Shown piece after piece: positions 18,065-27,040 of a DNA stretch of 64,000 bases. This stretch comes from Rhodomicrobium vannielii ATCC 17100 (GTDB taxonomy: Bacteria; Pseudomonadota; Alphaproteobacteria; Rhizobiales; Rhodomicrobiaceae), in contig NC_014664.1 in the NCBI RefSeq assembly GCF_000166055.1, positions 1,141,927 to 1,205,926 of the forward strand, written 5' to 3'. The position numbers and the translations under genes were made by a program. Position 1 is the first letter of the stretch, and the number at the start of each line of letters is the position of its first letter. The notes beneath the pieces are model-generated. The model worked only from the letters and a program-made list of their open reading frames with translations, made no database searches and had not been told where the DNA came from.

Positions 18065-18257
18065 ATGAAGTCCCTTCCGCCCTCTCTGGGTTGCGCTGGC
18101 CCTTCTCACGGCAGCGGCGGTTTTCTATTCGTGGGTGCAGGCGTGGACCACCGACTATTCCGCATGGCATATCGTCGGCCTTGGCCTGAGCGTAGTGTTC
18201 CTCGCGCTCGTCTGGCTTTATCCCGGCGTCCGCCAGCCGACGAAGCCACCGCGCTGA
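18065..18257 (+). pseudogene. Small two-helix membrane protein with an apparent one-base frameshift
   Basis: An ATG at 18065, preceded by GGAAAGG, opens MKSLPPSL. A one-base shift near 18085 enters a frame that reads WVALALLTAAAVFYSWVQAW, a polar turn, then HIVGLGLSVVFLALVWLY and ends GVRQPTKPPR at the TGA 18255-18257. Two clean hydrophobic helices in that frame, with no start codon of its own after an in-frame TGA, indicate a real small inner-membrane protein of about 63 residues. It is either broken by a one-base indel or affected by a sequencing error. It follows the DsbA-like gene by about 140 bases. The function is unknown. Confidence 0.5.
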
Positions 18258-18281
18258 GGCGGCCTGCCGAAGCGCGCCGCG

Positions 18282-18310
18282 TTGACATCCGCCTACGGAA
18301 TTGCTAGTCA
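18282..18310 (+). promoter_or_regulatory. Strong promoter before the structured leader
   Basis: TTGACA (18282-18287), a 17-base spacer, and TAGTCA (18305-18310) match the alphaproteobacterial housekeeping pattern well. Transcription would start near 18316, giving a leader of about 150 bases before the ATG at 18465. Confidence 0.65.
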
Positions 18311-18464
18311 CCGCCTCGGTTGGCAGTTCACCAAGGCGTTGCCGCCCCGCAAGGGGAGCTAAACCTGCCATATATTCGGTGTCACGGACTCTTATCCCGC
18401 GCCAGGTCGCAAGACGGCAACCCCGACAATCCAGCATGGATCGGCGCATGTCGAGGGGTAAGCC
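18311..18464 (+). promoter_or_regulatory. Highly structured 5' leader, candidate riboswitch with sequestered ribosome site
   Basis: The leader holds several helices. TGGCAG/CTGCCA (18321-18326/18365-18370) encloses CCCC-GCAA-GGGG (18345-18356). GTC-GCAA-GAC (18406-18415) is a second GNRA-loop hairpin, followed at once by CGGCAACC. A final stem pairs ACCCCGACA (18420-18428) with TGTCGAGGGGT (18449-18459) through a two-base bulge. The GAGGGG ribosome site (18453-18458) is buried in that last stem, six bases before the ATG. CGGCAACC after a helix recalls the SAM-I/SAM-IV riboswitch core, but the rest does not match well enough to name a class. Confidence 0.5.
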
Positions 18465-19379
18465 ATGCCGAATCTCGTCCAACGCCAACGCGCGGGCACC
18501 TGCGCGCATTTCGTCTCACCAACCATGATCCAGACGGCCCTCGGGCCTGTCGAATGCGCCTCTTACGGCGAAGGTCCGGCCATAATCGCCTTGCACGGCG
18601 GATTGGGCGGGTTCGACCAGAGCCTGCTTTTGGCGCGTGCCGCCATCTCCCCGCCTAGGTTTCGAATACTGGCCATATCGCGTCCCGGCTATCTCGGAAC
18701 GCCGCTGAGCGCAGGCGCTACGCCGGAGAAACAGGCGGATCTTTGCAGTGCCCTTCTCGATGCGCTCGGGATCAACAGCGCCGCAATCATAGCTGTCTCG
18801 GCCGGAGGGCTCGCCGCGCTTCAGTTTGTCCTGCGCCATCCAGAACGGTGCTGGGGCTTGGTGCTGGTCTCCGCCGCGACAGGCCATCTCGACGCGCCGC
18901 CCGAGGTTCCCGACCGCCTCACCGCGATGAGGCTACTGTCGCGCATTCCCTTCGCAACGGCCCTGATGCGATGGCGCATGGGGCTCACGCCTGAAGCCTC
19001 AGCACGACGCTCGATCGCAGCGGCCGACTTGCGGCAGAGCACCCTCGCCCATCCCGAGGCCGGCCCGCTGATGCACGCGCTTTCGTCGAGCGTGCTCCAA
19101 AGGCTGCGGGAACGTCTGCCCGGCGTCACGAACGACATGGCACAGTTGGAAGCAATGGATGGCTATCCGTTGCAGGATATTGCCGGGCCGGTCCTTGTCG
19201 TGCATGGCACCGGCGACCGCGTTGTGCCCTTTTCGCATGCGCTGGAAGTTGCGAACAGGATGGAGCGTTCGGAACTCATGGCGATCGAGAACGGCGAGCA
19301 TGTAAGTCTGTTCACGCATCTCGACGCCATAAGGGAGCGCGTCGGGATCTTTCTCGCCCGTCATACCCCTGTGCGGTGA
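18465..19379 (+). CDS. Alpha/beta hydrolase under a structured leader
   Basis: A 304-residue alpha/beta-hydrolase. LHGGLGGFDQ (about residues 44-53) forms the oxyanion turn, IAVSAGGLAAL (about 109-119) the nucleophile elbow, HGTGDRVVPF (about 246-255) the acid and NGEHVSLF (about 276-283) the histidine. The region between the nucleophile and the acid is a helical lid. No signal peptide is seen. The ATG is preceded by GAGGGG, which lies inside a stable stem of the leader, so translation is probably controlled. The substrate is unknown. The tRNA-Ser gene lies about 340 bases downstream. Confidence 0.85.
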   Translation: MPNLVQRQRAGTCAHFVSPTMIQTALGPVECASYGEGPAIIALHGGLGGFDQSLLLARAAISPPRFRILAISRPGYLGTPLSAGATPEKQADLCSALLDALGINSAAIIAVSAGGLAALQFVLRHPERCWGLVLVSAATGHLDAPPEVPDRLTAMRLLSRIPFATALMRWRMGLTPEASARRSIAAADLRQSTLAHPEAGPLMHALSSSVLQRLRERLPGVTNDMAQLEAMDGYPLQDIAGPVLVVHGTGDRVVPFSHALEVANRMERSELMAIENGEHVSLFTHLDAIRERVGIFLARHTPVR

Positions 19380-19718: not shown

Positions 19719-19808
<90 letters not shown>

Positions 19809-19938
19809 AATTCTCGCCGCAAAAATTTCCGTAAGCACCTATTCCAATTCACTGTTTTGCCTTAGAGCGAATTACTTCAGACTTGCTTTGCCCGGATGTG
19901 CTATACATTTTGATGCACAATTTGGGAGAGGCGCGGCT

Positions 19939-21213
19939 GTGAAAGACACAACCATTTTCAAGCGGGCCGATACGTGGCAACTCCGCCGCCGCGTGCCCGC
20001 GCGCTATGCCCCCGTCGAAGAGCGCAAGGTGATCTGGCTCAGCCTTCACACAGATTCGGAAAGCGTGGCGCGCCGCAAGGCCGCTGCTGCATGGGTGCAA
20101 CTCGAAGAGGCCTGGGAGGCCCGTCTCGCGGGCGACACGAACGATGCGGAGAAGCGTTACGCGGCGGCCCTGAACCTTTGCGGAATGCGCGGCTTTCGCT
20201 ACCTGCCTGCCGAAAAGATCGCGGCCTTGCCGGAGGAAGAGCGCATCCGGCGCGTGGAAGCCGTCGCTTCCGGCAAGCCGGAACGCTTTGAAGCGGCGGC
20301 TTTGCTCGGCGGCATAGCGAACCCGCCGCTCACGGTGACGCGGGCGCTCGATCTCTATTGGACGCTTGCCAGGGATCGAACATTGGGCAAGAGCGAGGAC
20401 CAGCTTCGCCGCTGGCGCAACCCGCGCATGAAGGCCGTAAAGAACTTCGCCCATGTGATCGGCGCGAAGCCACTCGCCGAAATCACCGCCGACGATGTAC
20501 TTAACTTCCGTGAATGGTGGATCGAGAAGATTGAGGCCGAAGACCTGTCGCCCAGCAGCGCGAACAAGGATTTTACCCATCTCGCGGACATGGTGCGCAC
20601 GCTCAACCGCATGAAGCGGCTCGGCCTGCCGGACCTGTTTCGTGGTGTGGCGCTCAAGGAAGGCGCCAAGCGCACCAGGCCTCCGTTCTCAACCGAATGG
20701 ACAAGGATGCGCCTCATCGCTCCCGGAGCGCTGGACGGCCTCAACACCGAAGCCCGCTGCATTGTGCTGGGCATGGTCAACACCGGCTACCGGCCAAGCG
20801 AGGCGGCAGGATTGCTGCCGGACCATATCAGGCTCGAAGGCCCGATCCCCTTCATCTCGATCGAACCTGTAGGGCGGCAACTCAAGAACGAGACGAGCAA
20901 GCGTATCATCCCGCTCGCGGGCGTGTCGCTCGAAGCGTTCCGGGAGTGCAAACAAGGCTTTCCACGTTATCGAAATTCCAGTGCGACGCTGAGCGCAACG
21001 GTGAACTCATATTTCCGCGAGAATGGTCTGCTCGAAACGGAAGATCACAGCCTCTATTCCCTTCGCCATTCTTTCGAGGATCGGTTAATCGCCACGCATG
21101 CGGACGAGCGCATCCGGCGCGACCTGTTCGGGCACGCCTATAACCGCGAGCGCTACGGCAAGGGCGGAAGCCTCGAACGCTTGCGCGAAACGATTTTGGC
21201 GGCAGCGCTCTGA
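19939..21213 (+). CDS. Tyrosine recombinase/integrase
   Basis: A 424-residue phage-type integrase if translation starts at the GTG at 19939, which has GGGAGAGG 8 bases upstream; an ATG 51 bases earlier lacks such a site. The N-terminal part (TWQLRRRVPARYAPVE) resembles the arm-binding region of DUF6538-type integrases, followed by a SAM-like core-binding domain. The catalytic set is visible: Arg in GYRPSEAAGL (about residue 285), the H-x-x-R region in YSLRHSFEDR, the histidine in FGHAYNRERYGKG and the tyrosine in that segment (about residue 404). Its position behind tRNA-Ser(CGA), same strand, fits integration into the tRNA 3' end. Confidence 0.93.
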   Translation: MKDTTIFKRADTWQLRRRVPARYAPVEERKVIWLSLHTDSESVARRKAAAAWVQLEEAWEARLAGDTNDAEKRYAAALNLCGMRGFRYLPAEKIAALPEEERIRRVEAVASGKPERFEAAALLGGIANPPLTVTRALDLYWTLARDRTLGKSEDQLRRWRNPRMKAVKNFAHVIGAKPLAEITADDVLNFREWWIEKIEAEDLSPSSANKDFTHLADMVRTLNRMKRLGLPDLFRGVALKEGAKRTRPPFSTEWTRMRLIAPGALDGLNTEARCIVLGMVNTGYRPSEAAGLLPDHIRLEGPIPFISIEPVGRQLKNETSKRIIPLAGVSLEAFRECKQGFPRYRNSSATLSATVNSYFRENGLLETEDHSLYSLRHSFEDRLIATHADERIRRDLFGHAYNRERYGKGGSLERLRETILAAAL

Positions 21214-21365
21214 GCGACTTCGCGGGCGCGCTCCCACGCCTTCGCCTTTTCCATGTCGCGCTCGAAGGCCATGAAGACGGGCAAGAGCGCGGGGTTCTGA
21301 GTAGCGAGCCGTGCAACTTTCGCATGGGCTGCCTTCAGGCGCTCGATGTCCTTGAGGGTGCGCAT
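21153..21365 (-). CDS. Small hypothetical protein, element control region
   Basis: A 70-residue, strongly helical and charged protein (MRTLKDIERLKAAHAKVARL) without a recognised domain. GGGAG precedes the ATG. It begins 3 bases after the stop of the upstream minus-strand gene and its 3' end overlaps the convergent integrase gene by 61 bases. The regular heptad-like pattern in LKAAHAKVARLATQNPALLPV suggests a short helical bundle. Its tight placement in a three-gene run supports coding. Confidence 0.5.
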   Translation of the reverse strand: MRTLKDIERLKAAHAKVARLATQNPALLPVFMAFERDMEKAKAWERAREVAQSAAAKIVSRKRSRLPPLP

Positions 21366-21368
21366 GGC

Positions 21369-21596
21369 TCACACTCCCACGTTGCGGGCGAACCGTCCGA
21401 ACTCGTCACGGCGTACCGCTCCAGATGACCCAGACATGTTGCAGCTTGCAGCCTTCCAAGCGCTGCGTGTGCGTTGCACGCGCCTCAGGCCCACGCCGAG
21501 CCCTCGGCTTGGTGTCTCGTGAGAACCGCGCCATTTCCCCTTTTTGGAAATGCCTTGGGCAGGGAGGAAGGGATGCGGAGAGACATGCGGCCTCAT
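21369..21596 (-). CDS. Small basic hypothetical protein
   Basis: A 75-residue basic, serine/glycine-rich protein ending RRDEFGRFARNVGV. Its ATG overlaps the TGA of the preceding gene as ATGA, and the next gene begins 3 bases after its own stop, so the three frames form a translationally coupled run. Another overlapping frame on the same strand (21406-21633) was considered, but it lacks the coupling at both ends. The function is unknown. Confidence 0.45.
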   Translation of the reverse strand: MRPHVSPHPFLPAQGISKKGKWRGSHETPSRGLGVGLRRVQRTRSAWKAASCNMSGSSGAVRRDEFGRFARNVGV

Positions 21597-22213
21597 CGAA
21601 CCTTCCTTTCACGATTATAAACGGGGCAATCAAAGATCAGCTCTCGTCCCGTCCGCACCTCAACGCCGAAGACTTTCGCGGCGAGGTCTGCGCCATGCGC
21701 CCGCGCAAAGGACGTAATCAGCTCATCCCAGTAAAGCGCTCGGCCGGAGGCCGTCTCCGGATAAGGTCGCGCGAAGGCGGCGATGGACGCCGCATGGATC
21801 CGTTCGAATTCGTTCGAAGAGCCGGGTTCTGGTACGTCGCTTGGTGGCTTGACGCGGGCTCTTTTCCTGGGCTTGCCGCGCACCGGGGGCTTGTGCCCTG
21901 CAGAAGCAACCGCGAGGGCATCCACGCCGATAGACTGAAGCCACAGCAATTCCGCCACCGGCCCAAGCGGCGAAGCCAGGTTCAGGCAAACGCGGCACAG
22001 TGGCAAGGCCCAGACCGGTTTTCGCGGGGGTATTCGGATTTTCAATGCATGAAGGGCGATTGCCGGCTGCTTTCGGCACGCAACGCAGCCGGCTTCTGTC
22101 GGGGCTTGACGAGGGACGCGATCACTCGCCGCCTGTACACATGTGATCGACGGCGTTTGTCGCGCGCCGGCGGGCGAAACTCGCCCTTTGGAAGCAGGAA
22201 CTCTGCCTATCAT
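21593..22213 (-). CDS. Hypothetical protein with a possible zinc-binding cysteine pair
   Basis: A 206-residue protein, unrecognised. A CVAC motif and a CRVC motif about 30 residues apart (the first 70 to 80 residues) could hold a zinc ion. The C-terminal half has a hydrophilic linker and a helical end (ALYWDELITSFARAHGADL). The start is set at the ATG preceded by TTGGGGTT; a longer frame runs to 22315. The stop overlaps the next gene as ATGA. A plus-strand frame across the same DNA looks like a shadow. Confidence 0.45.
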   Translation of the reverse strand: MIGRVPASKGRVSPAGARQTPSITCVQAASDRVPRQAPTEAGCVACRKQPAIALHALKIRIPPRKPVWALPLCRVCLNLASPLGPVAELLWLQSIGVDALAVASAGHKPPVRGKPRKRARVKPPSDVPEPGSSNEFERIHAASIAAFARPYPETASGRALYWDELITSFARAHGADLAAKVFGVEVRTGRELIFDCPVYNRERKVR

Positions 22214-22396
22214 GCTGGCAACCCCAAGACACGGTACGAAGCAAGAAGCCAACTGCCTGATACGCTCTAGGCTTGCCCAATATTGTCTAAAAAGCAAAAA
22301 ATAAAAATCGTCCAAAATAGGGCAACTATGGCATGACTCGCCTCAAGCAAAAGACGCCGTTTGGGAAAAGGCGCGGCGAACAAGCTGGGGAAAAGA

Positions 22397-22810
22397 TTAC
22401 TTGGCGGGCGCGATCCTCGCGGGCGGCTGAGCCCAGGGCGCAGCGGCAACGAGCCGGACATTTGGGCCAAGAACCAGAGGCGGGAGTTCGAGACAGCTGG
22501 TGTTGATGGTGAGTTGCCGGGGCGGCACGAACAGCCGCAACAACAAGAGCTGTCTGGGTGGTGATCCGACGGTGACCGCCGCGAAGGAAACCACCGAAGG
22601 CGTCTCACCCTCATCAAGGAGGCGCAAGGTCAGGAGATCGCCAGGAAACACGCCGCTGTCGGACAGAACGCGAGAGCGAACTTCGTAGACCTGGCAGGAG
22701 GGATCGGATCCAGATCTGGCATGGCTGCGATCGAGCGCGATCAGATCGTCATCGAGACCGCTCTGCCCCTCGGCCGCCAAAGCCGACGCCCACGCACGCG
22801 CAAGTCTCAT
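22397..22810 (-). CDS. S24-like hypothetical protein next to the XRE repressor
   Basis: A 137-residue protein whose middle (VLSDSGVFPGDLLTLRLLDE) resembles the substrate-binding turn of S24/LexA-type domains; the rest is beta-rich with a proline-rich tail. A catalytic Ser-Lys dyad is not obvious. It is transcribed in the same direction as the XRE repressor gene about 100 bases upstream and may form a repressor pair with it. It could equally be an unrelated small protein. The gap to the next gene (22214-22396) is AT-rich and contains ATTGTCTAA. Confidence 0.5.
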   Translation of the reverse strand: MRLARAWASALAAEGQSGLDDDLIALDRSHARSGSDPSCQVYEVRSRVLSDSGVFPGDLLTLRLLDEGETPSVVSFAAVTVGSPPRQLLLLRLFVPPRQLTINTSCLELPPLVLGPNVRLVAAAPWAQPPARIAPAK

Positions 22811-22912
22811 AGGCCGCTTTTCCGCTTCGTTGCCTTGGACTTAGACTTCTTCATTTATATTGAAACTGCAATCTGAGATCCGATGCAGTTCAAAGAATGT
22901 GCGCGGACCTAT

Positions 22913-23464
22913 TCAAAGAAGGACGCGGCCGATCACGGTCGCTTTTGCTCTAAGCCTATGAATAGGCATGGCATTTTGATCATCGCTGTTGGTAATCAAA
23001 AGGTGCGGCCCGATGTATTGCCGCAACAGCAAAACGCCTTCTGGGCAGTTACTGGTAAAGATTTGGGCAATCACCAACTGGCCAAGCTCCAATTTCTGCA
23101 ATCCCTTAGGGTCCATATCCGCGATGATCGGATCGCCCTCGGTGATGCCAAGCTCGCTCATCACGTTCGACAGAACCTTGAACATCTCTTGCGTCGAAGA
23201 TGTCAGCGCCTTTTCGATTGCCGAGCCTTTGGGCGGGATATAGGGCGCAAGGTCGGCCATGTAGCTCAAGCTCTGAACCGAGAGAATTTCGGTCACAGGC
23301 ACGCCCAACGCGCCGGCGAGCGCCTCCATTTTGGAAAGATGCAGCCCCCGCGCGCCCGCTTCGACCCGCGACAAATGACTTTCCGAGATGCCGATTTTTT
23401 TCGCGAGCTCGGTGAGCGACAAGCCGCGTTCAAGTCTCAGTTGCCGGATTCGATTGATTGCCAT
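22913..23464 (-). CDS. XRE-family repressor with C-terminal S24-like domain
   Basis: A 183-residue regulator. The N-terminal helix-turn-helix runs INRIRQLRLERGLSLTELAKKIGISESHLSRVEAGARGL, nearly a textbook Cro/C1 domain. The C-terminal part (about residues 105-180: ELGITEGDPIIADMD, LGQLVIAQIF, GPHLLITNS) has the outline of an S24 dimerisation domain, but a LexA-type Ser-Lys pair is not clear. MAINRIR is chosen as start; a TTG sixteen codons upstream (23512) is possible. It is divergent from a Cro-like gene with a palindromic operator between them, the layout of a phage-type lysogeny switch controlling excision or transfer. Confidence 0.85.
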   Translation of the reverse strand: MAINRIRQLRLERGLSLTELAKKIGISESHLSRVEAGARGLHLSKMEALAGALGVPVTEILSVQSLSYMADLAPYIPPKGSAIEKALTSSTQEMFKVLSNVMSELGITEGDPIIADMDPKGLQKLELGQLVIAQIFTSNCPEGVLLLRQYIGPHLLITNSDDQNAMPIHRLRAKATVIGRVLL

Positions 23465-23530
23465 GGAGGGCTTCTTGCCAGCTTTCTTGGTGGCAATCCA
23501 GAGTTTGTCCAAAAAAAGACCTTGGCTGAG

Positions 23531-23552
23531 GATTGTCTAACAGGCAACAATC
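23531..23552. promoter_or_regulatory. Palindromic operator between the XRE repressor and Cro-like genes
   Basis: GATTGT (23531-23536) and ACAATC (23547-23552) are perfect inverted repeats separated by 10 bases. They sit in the divergent gap between the repressor and the gene at 23596. The GATTGTCTA half recurs before traG (57,205-57,221), before trbF (46,884-46,893) and in the gap at 22,282-22,290. Confidence 0.6.
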
Positions 23553-23595
23553 GGCAAGTCAAAGCTAAAACCTGTCAGGGAGGCGCGGGGCACGC

Positions 23596-23913
23596 ATGAA
23601 CTTGGCGACCAAATTCCAGAGCGTTTTGCAAGTGACGGGACATACCCGCACGAGTTTCGCGAAGCGCGCAGGCGTCACGCCCGCGATGTTATCGCGGCTC
23701 ATCCCCCAGGATGGGAGGGAGCCAGAGAGAAAAGCCACGCTCGCAACCCTGCTCCGGCTGATCTCGGCCTCCGAAGGCCTACTCACTATCCAGGACTTCC
23801 GGGCGCACCGCGCCACGCGCGAACGGCCCTTCCTGATGGAGACCGCCTGCCCGCTCTGCGGGCGCGCCATCGAGGGCGATGCGAAGCACCCCAAGTGCAG
23901 ATCAGCCGGATGA
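23596..23913 (+). CDS. Small Cro-like HTH protein with CxxC tail
   Basis: A 105-residue protein. The first 65 residues form a helix-turn-helix of the lambda-repressor type (HTRTSFAKRAGVTPAMLSRL). The C-terminus carries CPLCGRAIEGDAKHPKC, three cysteines that may bind zinc. It lies downstream of the palindromic operator and opposite the XRE repressor, as Cro does in phages. The following primase gene begins 67 bases later, so the two are probably co-transcribed. Confidence 0.75.
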   Translation: MNLATKFQSVLQVTGHTRTSFAKRAGVTPAMLSRLIPQDGREPERKATLATLLRLISASEGLLTIQDFRAHRATRERPFLMETACPLCGRAIEGDAKHPKCRSAG

Positions 23914-23980
23914 GCGCGGCCTTGCGATAGGCCCGAGCCAAGCGCGGCTCGCATGCAAGCAGGAAAGCAAAGGATGTCGC

Positions 23981-26900
23981 ATGAAACGGGGATCGGGCGG
24001 CAAGGCTAAAGCCCGCGACGGCGACACGTCGCCAGGCAAGACATCGCCAAGCGAGACATCAGGTATGGCGTCATCAGGCCGATGGGAGTCCGTAAAAGCC
24101 GACCTCGCCGGCCGGGAGCTCGATATCCTGCGCTGGATCGGCATCGCCTGGCCACCGGCAAGGCGTCAAACCCATATCCATTGCCCCTTTCCGGGCCACG
24201 ACGACAAGAACCCGTCCTGGCGATGGGACACGCGAAAGAAGGCATGGTTCTGCAGCCAGTGCGGCGGTGGCGACATCCTTCATGCCGTCGAGCGCATGAA
24301 GGGACTGTCCTTTCAGAAAGCCCTCGATTTGATCGAGACGGAGCTTCTCGGCCGCGCTTACGAAGCGCCGAAGCCGGAGCGAAAAACACGCCGCATCAGC
24401 CAGCAGCAGCCCGCTGAACGCGCCTTACAAAATAGGGCTGAGGCCGAAGCTTTTGGCGATTTGCCCAAAGCGCTCGATGAAAGCGCCGATGCTGCTACCG
24501 GTGGGCCGACCGGGCGACCGGTCCTTGATGCAGCCGATGACGACATCGAGAGGAGGCGCCAGCGCGCATTCCAGCTCTGGAGCGAGGCCAAAGCCGTCGC
24601 CGGCACGCTCGCTCAGACCTATTTCGAGCAGCATCGCGGCATTGTGCTCGATTGGCCGCTCCTTCACACGGCGATCCGCTTTCATTCCCGTCTTTGGTGC
24701 AGCGAGCGCGACGGATATTATCCGGCCATCCTGTTCCGGGTCTCGGACGCCTATGATGGGGAACTCAAGACCCTCCACCGCCTCTATCTCGGCGAGGATG
24801 GCGGCAAGGCCAAGATCGCAAGCCCGAAAAAGGCCTATGGCGAGTATGCGGGCGGAGCCATCTGGTTTGGCGCGCCGCAAGAAGGCGGCGAGCTTGTAAA
24901 AGCCGAGGGGCCTGAAAACGCGCTTGTCTGTTTCATGGCGGGGCGCCCCTTTGTTGCCTCCGCCATTAGCGGCGCGAATCTGAAGAACGTCGTGCCTCCG
25001 TCCATTATCAAGACCGTGCTTGTCGCCGGCGACCGGGGCCGCGGCGTCGGCAAGGGCAAGGCGGGCGAGGACTATGCCGAGGATGCAGCCAACGCCGACC
25101 GCAAAAGAAAAGTCTCGGCCGCCATCACCTATCCGCCGGCGCGGCCGAAGCCGGACGGCAAATGGCAGGATTGGAACGACCTTCTCGTAAGCGATGGGCT
25201 CGATGCCGTGCGCGAAGCGCTGGCCCAAAGCGAGCCCTGGGAAGATCTGCCCTTCGGGTTTCGCTGGCAGGAGAACGGCCGAGGCCTCGAATTCTTGAGC
25301 CGCATCGTGAAGGGTGAGGACGGCGAGGAGGAGGATGAGTGGGATTGGCTGTGCTCCGAGGTGAGGTTCCTCGCCACCACGCTCAACGCCGACAGCAAGG
25401 ACTGGGGCCTCTATCTCGAAATCAGGACGCGCAACGCCGTCTGGCACAAGGCCGCCATCCCGAAAACCGACCTCGTGACGAGCTCCGAGGATATTTTCAA
25501 GCACCTAGCCTTTCACGGGCTCGATTTCAACATCACGCCAAGAGCGAAGACGAAGCTCCGGGAGCTGCTCGTCCGCACTCGGCCCAAATCCTATGCGCTG
25601 TGTGTTCCGAAGGTCGGGTTTCACGACGGGGTGTTTGTGCTCCCCGATGAGACCATCGGGGAGAGCAAAGGGCGCGCCGTCGTCTTTCAGCCGCACAAGC
25701 CGGTCGAGCATTTCTACCGAAAAGGCGGGAGCCTGAAAGGCTGGCAAGACGGCGTGGCGGCTTACGCGCGCGGCAACGACCGGCTCATGTTTGCGATCGC
25801 CGCCGCGTTAGCGCCGCCGCTCCTCGAACCGATCGGCATGGAAGGCGGCGGCATTCATTTCCGAGGCGGGTCGACGGCTGGCAAGACCACCATCCTCCGC
25901 GCCGCGGGCACCGTCTGGGGCGGCGGCGGGCAATATGGCTTCATGCGCACCTGGCGGGCTACCGACAACGCGCTCGAAGCTGTCGCCGCCATCCACAACA
26001 ATGCGTTTCTTGCCCTTGATGAGATCGCCGAAATCGAGCCGAGAGCGCTCTTTCGGGCGGCCTACGCGCTCGCGAATGGTCGGCAGAAAGAGCGGATGCA
26101 AAGAACCTCCGATCTTCGAAGCGCGTGCACCTGGCGGCTGCTCTTCATGTCCACAGGCGAAATCGGCATGGCCGAAAAGCTCTCCGAAGACCGCATGCGC
26201 GCAACGGGCGGCCAAGCGGTGCGGCTTGTCGAAATCAGCGCCGACGCAGGCCACGGCATGGGCATGTTTCAAACTCTGCACGGATTCAAGGAACCAAAGC
26301 AGCTCGCCGAGGCGCTCAATGCGAGCGGGCGGGAGCATTACGGCCATGCCGCACCCGCCTTCATTCGCCATCTCACAGGCGATCTCGAGCGGCTGACCGA
26401 AGGCGCGAAAGCCTTTATCGGCCGCTTCGTGCAACAAGCCTGCGCCAAAGACGCTGACGGCCAGGTTGCGCGCGTGGCAGGCCGCTTCGGGCTTATCGCT
26501 GCCGCCGGCGAGCTTGCGATCGCGGCCGGCATCGTGCCTTGGCGCCGCGGCGAGGTGCGCGAGGCTTGCAAGCGGCTGTTTCTCGAGTGGCTCGCCGCGC
26601 GCGGCACCTCGGGGCCGATCGAGACGCAGAACGGAATCCTGCAGGTAAAAGGCTTCATCGAGCTGCATGGCTCCTCGCGCTTCAGCTCCTGGCATACGCC
26701 CGGCCAGCCCACCCTGAACAGGGTTGGCTTCTACCGCATCTTCGATCAGGGAGCAGATGACGAGAAGGTCGTCTATTACGTGCTGCCCGAAGGGTGGAAG
26801 GAGATCTGTCGCGGTCACGACGCGCGATCGATCGCCAGCGCCATGGTCAAGCGCGGCATTATCAACCCCGACAACGATGGCAAGTACCAGCGCGTTGTCC

Positions 26901-27040
26901 GCCTGCCCGGCATGGGTCCGAGGCGGTGCTACGAGATCGATGCGTCGCTTCTGTTTGGCGATGAGGATGAGCCTTCAGCGCAATTCAATGGCAGCGCTTG
27001 GGTGCCCGTCGGGCCGGATTTCACGGCGACGGACCAATAG
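23981..27040 (+). CDS. Large primase-helicase (CHC2 zinc finger, Toprim-like, DUF927 ATPase)
   Basis: A 1019-residue replication protein. Residues 65-100 are a DnaG-type CHC2 zinc finger (ligands C68, H73, C91, C94 in CPFPGHDDKNP and WFCSQCGGGD). A Toprim-like region follows at about 150-400 (HRLYLGEDGGKAKI, GPENALVCF, KTVLVAGDRG). The C-terminal half is a DUF927 helicase-like ATPase with Walker A GGSTAGKTT (about 628) and acidic FLALDEIAEI (about 675). AAAGGA precedes the chosen ATG; a frame start 102 bases upstream overlaps the previous gene. Fused primase-helicases of this type initiate replication of phage satellites and some integrative elements. The repeat array directly downstream is a candidate origin. 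Confidence 0.85.
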   Translation: MKRGSGGKAKARDGDTSPGKTSPSETSGMASSGRWESVKADLAGRELDILRWIGIAWPPARRQTHIHCPFPGHDDKNPSWRWDTRKKAWFCSQCGGGDILHAVERMKGLSFQKALDLIETELLGRAYEAPKPERKTRRISQQQPAERALQNRAEAEAFGDLPKALDESADAATGGPTGRPVLDAADDDIERRRQRAFQLWSEAKAVAGTLAQTYFEQHRGIVLDWPLLHTAIRFHSRLWCSERDGYYPAILFRVSDAYDGELKTLHRLYLGEDGGKAKIASPKKAYGEYAGGAIWFGAPQEGGELVKAEGPENALVCFMAGRPFVASAISGANLKNVVPPSIIKTVLVAGDRGRGVGKGKAGEDYAEDAANADRKRKVSAAITYPPARPKPDGKWQDWNDLLVSDGLDAVREALAQSEPWEDLPFGFRWQENGRGLEFLSRIVKGEDGEEEDEWDWLCSEVRFLATTLNADSKDWGLYLEIRTRNAVWHKAAIPKTDLVTSSEDIFKHLAFHGLDFNITPRAKTKLRELLVRTRPKSYALCVPKVGFHDGVFVLPDETIGESKGRAVVFQPHKPVEHFYRKGGSLKGWQDGVAAYARGNDRLMFAIAAALAPPLLEPIGMEGGGIHFRGGSTAGKTTILRAAGTVWGGGGQYGFMRTWRATDNALEAVAAIHNNAFLALDEIAEIEPRALFRAAYALANGRQKERMQRTSDLRSACTWRLLFMSTGEIGMAEKLSEDRMRATGGQAVRLVEISADAGHGMGMFQTLHGFKEPKQLAEALNASGREHYGHAAPAFIRHLTGDLERLTEGAKAFIGRFVQQACAKDADGQVARVAGRFGLIAAAGELAIAAGIVPWRRGEVREACKRLFLEWLAARGTSGPIETQNGILQVKGFIELHGSSRFSSWHTPGQPTLNRVGFYRIFDQGADDEKVVYYVLPEGWKEICRGHDARSIASAMVKRGIINPDNDGKYQRVVRLPGMGPRRCYEIDASLLFGDEDEPSAQFNGSAWVPVGPDFTATDQ

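Follow-up and report, generated by a model that had tools for sequence, protein, structure and literature searches.

The window analysed here is a stretch of 64,000 nucleotides of Rhodomicrobium vannielii ATCC 17100. It contains a gene for an alpha/beta hydrolase that is preceded by a probable promoter and a leader of about 150 nt (Table 1). S112, D251 and H279 of the hydrolase are invariant in 12 homologues and presumably have catalytic roles. From the sequence alone the promoter had been called strong. Its letters and its spacing stand, but "strong" was an overstatement, since TAGTCA agrees with TATAAT at two of six positions and a scan for consensus promoters found none. In the 114 leaders of the alignment described below, an excess of TTG and of TA is seen at matching distances upstream of the RNA (counted from the RNA, T in 67% at -35 and T or A in 86% at -12), and this equal spacing in relatives makes a promoter at this site likely. 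Because the signal lies at a fixed distance, the 5' end of the transcript was placed at the hairpin P1, which matches the expected start site.

Table 1. Features of the hydrolase locus in window coordinates, in the order of their 5' ends. LR, long-range helix; SD, Shine-Dalgarno sequence.
Feature	Positions	Strand	Basis
Probable promoter: TTGACA 18282-18287, 17 nt, weak -10 TAGTCA 18305-18310	18282..18310	+	Sequence and relatives
Full leader RNA, including SD and start codon	18317..18467	+	Model R1, 125.9 bits over 18317-18467
COG3860 RNA as in Rfam RF02940	18317..18370	+	cmscan
P1 hairpin, 18317-18320 with 18330-18333; outer pair a C-A mismatch here	18317..18333	+	92.3% of cells paired
PKa 5' strand GCAG, in P1 loop; partner 18365-18368	18323..18326	+	99.8% of cells paired
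AGGC and AGCUAAAC	18334-18337 and 18357-18364	+	Stretches between named helix strands
LR 5' strand GUUGCCG; partner 18415-18421	18338..18344	+	100% of cells paired
P2 hairpin CCCC-GCAA-GGGG	18345..18356	+	93.6% of cells paired, 4/4 pairs covary
PKa 3' strand CUGC	18365..18368	+	Alignment A1 and L193/L197
P6 5' strand (anti-SD) CUUAUCCC; partner GGGGUAAG 18455-18462	18391..18398	+	Helix score against swaps
P3 5' strand GCGCC; partner 18443-18447	18399..18403	+	94.1% of cells paired, double change in 3/5 pairs
P4 5' strand GUCG; partner 18424-18427	18406..18409	+	83.8% of cells paired, double change in 4/4 pairs
LR 3' strand CGGCAAC, the CGGCAACC motif of the sequence-only reading (18415-18422), inside P4 loop	18415..18421	+	Covariation
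P4 3' strand CGAC	18424..18427	+	Alignment A1
P5 hairpin AUCC/GGAU	18429..18441	+	Sequence only; too variable to align, not counted
P3 3' strand GGCGC	18443..18447	+	Alignment A1
SD GAGGGG 18453-18458 and P6 3' strand GGGGUAAG 18455-18462	18453..18462	+	Helix score against swaps
Alpha/beta hydrolase, 304 aa, ATG 18465	18465..19379	+	Pfam Abhydrolase_1, 1.8e-16

The sequence-only reading knew of no class to which the leader could belong; the Rfam search supplied one. This class is COG3860 RNA, catalogued as an orphan motif of the cis-regulatory type, whose model is matched in full (positions 1-54 of 54) by the first 54 nt of the leader; the score is 68.6 bits (cut-off 42.5; E over the window 3.4e-13). 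When 18150-18600 was compared with Rfam at E values up to 10, the only other match was a 12-nt fragment of a CRISPR repeat (E 9.8). The motif reportedly stems from a survey of 224 candidates by Weinberg and co-workers. Its Rfam structure line comprises two hairpins only, and both are found in the window leader as P1, with the outer pair mismatched, and P2. In contrast to these two hairpins, the leader described here has about 150 nt and comprises the pairing PKa, the long-range helix LR, a junction of P3 to P5 and a helix over the SD. This larger element begins at 18317 and extends to the start codon (18465), as shown by the alignment of 114 leaders, which suggests that the catalogued motif may represent roughly its first third. 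R1, a covariance model of the whole leader, was built from the same 114 leaders, the window leader among them; it holds neither of the two pseudoknot pairings, but does hold the usual letters of their strands.

The leader is a member of a catalogued family, and what appears to be new for this family is its complete architecture, the helix over the SD and a second gene under its control. A literature search, with most subscription journals and the source survey outside its range, found no paper on the COG3860 RNA motif or RF02940, so that a description of the longer structure may already have been published. In the passages available, the papers on COG3860 or DUF2087 concern proteins (PMC7113386, PMC1564403).

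Comparative architecture of the leader

The folding energy of the leader is no better than that of shuffled sequences (z = 0.43; 132 of 200 shuffles fold equally well), and therefore the case for a structured RNA rests on comparison. A total of 157 leaders were collected, from which a false pattern match (L151b), a leader with a disrupted 3' part (L132) and one with a long insert (L090) were taken out. Leaders that were more than 90% alike were collapsed, and the resulting 114 non-redundant leaders form alignment A1, which runs from the 5' end of the RNA to the start codon; complete reading frames were kept for 105 of them. Over 28 pooled pairs, A1 contains 276 doubly changed paired cells, compared to 82 ± 9 in shuffles and 27 to 43 in slid registers. 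With one more pair in P3 and one more in P4, 92.9% instead of 94.6% of cells are paired, and the covariation score is 0.272 instead of 0.259.

LR joins the first domain to the loop of P4. Its 7 bp are paired in all 784 cells of the 114 leaders, compared to 15-66% in slid controls, and each of the seven pairs exhibits compensatory changes. The 3' strand varies in relatives along with its partner (CGGUGAC, CAGCGAC, CGACAAC and others). LR pairs rank second, fourth and sixth in a structure-free covariation scan, which was restricted to columns with at most 30% gaps and of which the top 60 pairs were inspected; with gap-rich columns thus skipped, neither P6 nor an alternative "ON" helix is among these 60. 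Leaders outside A1 were compared as well. R1 yielded 22 rows, three of which repeat A1 rows (L177, L188, L196) and two of which are weak, and 15 non-redundant leaders remain. At least six contiguous LR pairs are present in 14 of them, while L172 has five. The mean is 6.6 LR pairs, compared to 5.6 ± 0.2 with swapped partners, and none of 1000 swaps was as good (best 6.2). Strands that have changed and nevertheless match are found in L184 (AUCGCCG/CGGCGAU), L194 (GUUGCCA/UGGCAAC) and L199 (GCUGCC/GGCAGC). For all parsed leaders the count is 173 of 177 with at least six contiguous LR pairs, a count that is not independent of the one in A1. The four below six are L005, which did not pass the AA filter and whose strand is visible by eye, L069 (five pairs, contig end), L172 and the chance match L200; L201 was unparsed.

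The other helices vary to different degrees. The outer pair of P1, mismatched in the window, is CG, GC or UA in relatives and unpaired in 35 of the 114 leaders. Three of the four PKa pairs are invariant in A1, and the fourth has compensatory changes. In L193 and L197 the P1 loop GGCUGCU faces AGCAGCC (7 bp) and P1 has changed from GGU/ACC to GGC/GCC; PKa, elsewhere almost without variation, has natural compensatory variants in these two leaders. P2 is one of two GCAA-tetraloop hairpins that had been read from the sequence. A drawing of the second, GUC-GCAA-GAC, is possible, yet for its bases the alignment supports the pairing GUCG-CGAC instead and the placement of C18415 in LR. A fifth P4 pair (18410-18423) covaries in relatives and is not formed in the window.

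A rough tree was built on the unpaired columns, and its noise makes the following counts approximate. For LR there are 39 double changes, nine tolerated single changes and six breaks; all six breaks fall on the last pair, which is gapped in 14 leaders. The respective numbers are 43, 3 and 24 for P2, 10, 26 and 33 for P3, 18, 21 and 58 for P4, 2, 4 and 1 for PKa, and 5, 0 and 5 for P1. By these counts, the predicted helices P3 and P4 are less strictly maintained than LR. In the 114 leaders, some 20 unpaired bases reach an invariance of 90% or more.

For P6, the stretch before P3 was compared with the stretch from P3 to the start codon, and the best helix was scored for each of the 114 leaders. 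Strands and their own partners scored 15.8 on average. Partner swaps lowered the mean to 13.5 (sd 0.21; the highest of 50 swaps reached 14.06), and shuffling of the sequence lowered it to 12.7. An SD-like word is covered by the best helix in 91 of the 114 leaders, and in 57 the helix abuts P3 (0-1 nt). These scores support P6 as a putative covarying helix that pairs with the SD, and they supply a partner, the P6 5' strand of Table 1, for the GAGGGG that had been described as buried just before the ATG. The minimum-energy fold contains another SD helix, CCCCGAC/GUCGAGGGG, which was rejected because it is absent from the top 60 covariation pairs; this argument is weak, as P6 is absent as well. 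The named helices of the window leader share no nucleotides, and thus one fold can hold all of them with the ribosome site covered. Judged by comparison, the leader is a real, conserved structured RNA with an apparent expression platform. That a structured leader hides the ribosome site of the hydrolase had been proposed from the sequence and is borne out by the covariation. The proposal had come with a check fixed beforehand, on covariation and on leaders at orthologues, which it survived: covariation is found in 114 leaders, and orthologues have the leader.

There is no terminator-like site in the leader itself, which fits translational control. Two overlapping terminator-like hairpins lie at 18489-18507, within the start of the hydrolase gene (shuffles average 0.1). 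A similar peptide can be read in two copies of the motif (ORF at 18320 and ORF at 1495); conserved coding was rejected because motif lengths of 54, 55 and 56 nt break the frame.

Genes behind the RNA and its distribution

The genome contains two copies of the RNA, one in front of the hydrolase gene in the window and the other in front of a gene for a DUF2087 protein (PF09860, COG3860). The second copy and the cis-regulatory position agree with the catalogued motif. The window copy differs in that it precedes a hydrolase gene instead of DUF2087, and this difference concerns the association of the motif, which is not part of the model. The genes at the leader ends were determined for 155 leaders (L090 included, L132 not), and a match had to begin at the start codon, from -60 to +200 nt. 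DUF2087 follows in 146 and the hydrolase, including that of the window, in seven. The remaining two are L052, whose frame falls into the DUF2087 cluster, and L103, which is cut by the end of its stretch. Therefore, 153 of 155 leaders run into one of two gene families, which points to a specific signal.

The hydrolase is found in two arrangements. It lies directly behind its own RNA in the window, L166, L151/L152, L153, L163, L164 and L165, and within about 240 nt downstream of a DUF2087 match on the same strand in L086, L085, L121, L029, L031, L167, L168, L169 and L171. Hydrolase matches at E 1e-25 occur in 19 of 297 genomes of the order. The 13 orthologues in the order with at least 185 bits comprise five with their own RNA, seven behind an RNA-DUF2087 pair and one (G099) that is RNA-less in the fetched stretch; all 13 genomes also have DUF2087. 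In G099 (L244), the orthologue has 195 bits and an RNA-DUF2087 pair is present elsewhere in the genome, so that the gene has either been uncoupled or has a diverged leader. The next-best hydrolase match, in G205 with 151 bits, lacks an RNA in the fetched stretch, and DUF2087 is absent from this genome. In a scan of neighbours the hydrolase was the only nameable recurrent same-strand next gene among the 30 clusters listed, some others of which look like wrong reading frames and were left unnamed.

RF02940 matches are found in 38 of the 297 genomes of the order, 35 of them over the cut-off, and in 10 of 385 genomes drawn from the class, six of them over the cut-off, the own genome included. A pattern scan of species genomes gave at least 119 stretches, and alpha-, beta- and gammaproteobacteria and Desulfovibrio-like genera are among the matches listed. 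In a sample of 398 genomes of the phylum, R1 had matches in 25, the own genome again among them; two of these matches (L200, L201) have neither DUF2087 nor the hydrolase nearby. Four Azospirillum plasmid records match only the first 54 nt or so. In the order the RNA was counted in 36 genomes, i.e., the 35 over the cut-off and G093, and all 36 have DUF2087, usually as the gene behind the RNA. Conversely, 39 genomes carry DUF2087, and the RNA is present in 36 of these; no RNA was detected near the other three DUF2087 genes (L210, L211 and L216 in G275, G179 and G127). The weak RNA matches in G131 and G147, which lack DUF2087, were judged to be due to chance. The same applies to the weak matches L158-L161, L173, L174, L200 and L201, which have no DUF2087 or hydrolase match, albeit some of their E values are small (1e-5 to 1e-2).

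Candidate mechanisms

The reading that we favour, with a probability of roughly 0.58, is that a COG3860-family leader of about 150 nt acts as a translational switch, in which an effector stabilises the fold that covers the SD and the switch is OFF when folded. The hydrolase mRNA would start with this RNA. An effector, most likely a small molecule, would stabilise the fold, so that less hydrolase and, at other loci, less DUF2087 protein would be made. Low effector levels would let P6 open and the ribosome bind, although the top 60 pairs of the scan contain no alternative "ON" helix. A small molecule is favoured because of the nearly invariant unpaired bases and because the regulon contains an enzyme. 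The hydrolase would be a second target and the first enzymatic hint at the effector. The Rfam model of 54 nt lacks the partner strand of its most telling bases. Constructs of that length would miss half of LR and the ribosome-site helix; a construct suitable for probing can be designed from the full architecture.

More tentatively, and at somewhat less than even odds, the leader may represent a new class of double-pseudoknot translational riboswitches of about 150 nt, with a metabolite that is processed by or acts on the hydrolase and the DUF2087 protein. If so, the catalogued motif would be too short to fold as an aptamer, and this could explain why it has no known ligand. PreQ1, SAM-II and ZTP riboswitches are translational riboswitches with pseudoknotted aptamers, in which the last helix lies over the SD. 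The window leader resembles them in being pseudoknotted and in the last helix that covers the SD, but it has no Rfam match to any of them.

A protein could take the place of the small molecule. The DUF2087 protein, which may be winged-helix-like, would then autoregulate its synthesis by binding to its own leader and would bind in trans to the hydrolase leader, blocking translation. Ribosomal-protein leaders are structured, autoregulatory and bound by their own protein, and the window RNA is likewise structured and tied to one family that may bind nucleic acid. The near one-to-one co-occurrence of RNA and DUF2087 in the order (36/39) and the presence of DUF2087 in all 13 genomes with a hydrolase orthologue speak for this explanation, but the same co-occurrence would be expected if DUF2087 were merely the main target, and three genomes have the gene and no detected RNA. 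Nucleic-acid binding has been proposed for DUF2087 in an available passage (PMC7113386, citing Rigden 2011). In sequence comparisons DUF2087 had no relative among known structures (best E 0.16). Weak matches of its confident AlphaFold model (mean pLDDT 96.1) include winged-helix proteins, but no Foldseek match had an E value as low as 0.001, and thus no fold was matched with confidence. The invariant unpaired bases would be more typical of a small-molecule pocket, and they are apparently more conserved than is usual for ribosomal-protein leaders. Autoregulation by DUF2087 is plausible, but less likely than a small-molecule switch.

Considerably less probable is a passive 5' element, that is, an RNA thermometer, a stabiliser or a tuner of translation that responds to no specific effector. 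It would agree with an SD that is paired in the fold found. However, the length, the two pseudoknots and the invariant unpaired bases would exceed what a thermometer or a stabiliser needs, and the 153 of 155 leaders directly precede one of only two gene families. A riboswitch of the SAM-I/SAM-IV type, of which the sequence-only reading had been reminded, is very improbable: CGGCAACC resembles part of the SAM-I core, and the letters GGCAACC are presumably common to SAM-I/SAM-IV riboswitches and the window leader, but no SAM family was matched up to E 10, and the letters CGGCAAC, which are not conserved as such, are one strand of a covarying helix. That the leader contains no functional RNA and only chance hairpins in a GC-rich sequence would suit the folding energy, but is scarcely credible in the light of the covariation in 114 leaders and the Rfam match.

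Neighbourhood of the hydrolase locus

In Rhodomicrobium sp. Az07 (G073, leader L107), in which the hydrolase was not matched, homology to the window extends as far as 18258 and stops just before the promoter; in this single comparison promoter, RNA and gene thus differ as one block. A phage origin was considered for the RNA, because leaders L151 and L152 are from IMG/VR "viral" contigs, and was rejected. Their sequence is about 85% identical to the window chromosome across the RNA, the hydrolase gene and tRNA-Ser, and homology stops where the tRNA ends; they thus look like prophage or island junctions and not like phage genes. They are probably attachment-site junctions of other integrated elements. 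Window positions 19719-27040, directly downstream of the hydrolase, probably hold an integrated element: behind a tRNA-Ser(CGA) there are genes for a phage-type integrase (19888-21213), for a Cro/C1-type regulator and for a DUF927/Toprim protein.
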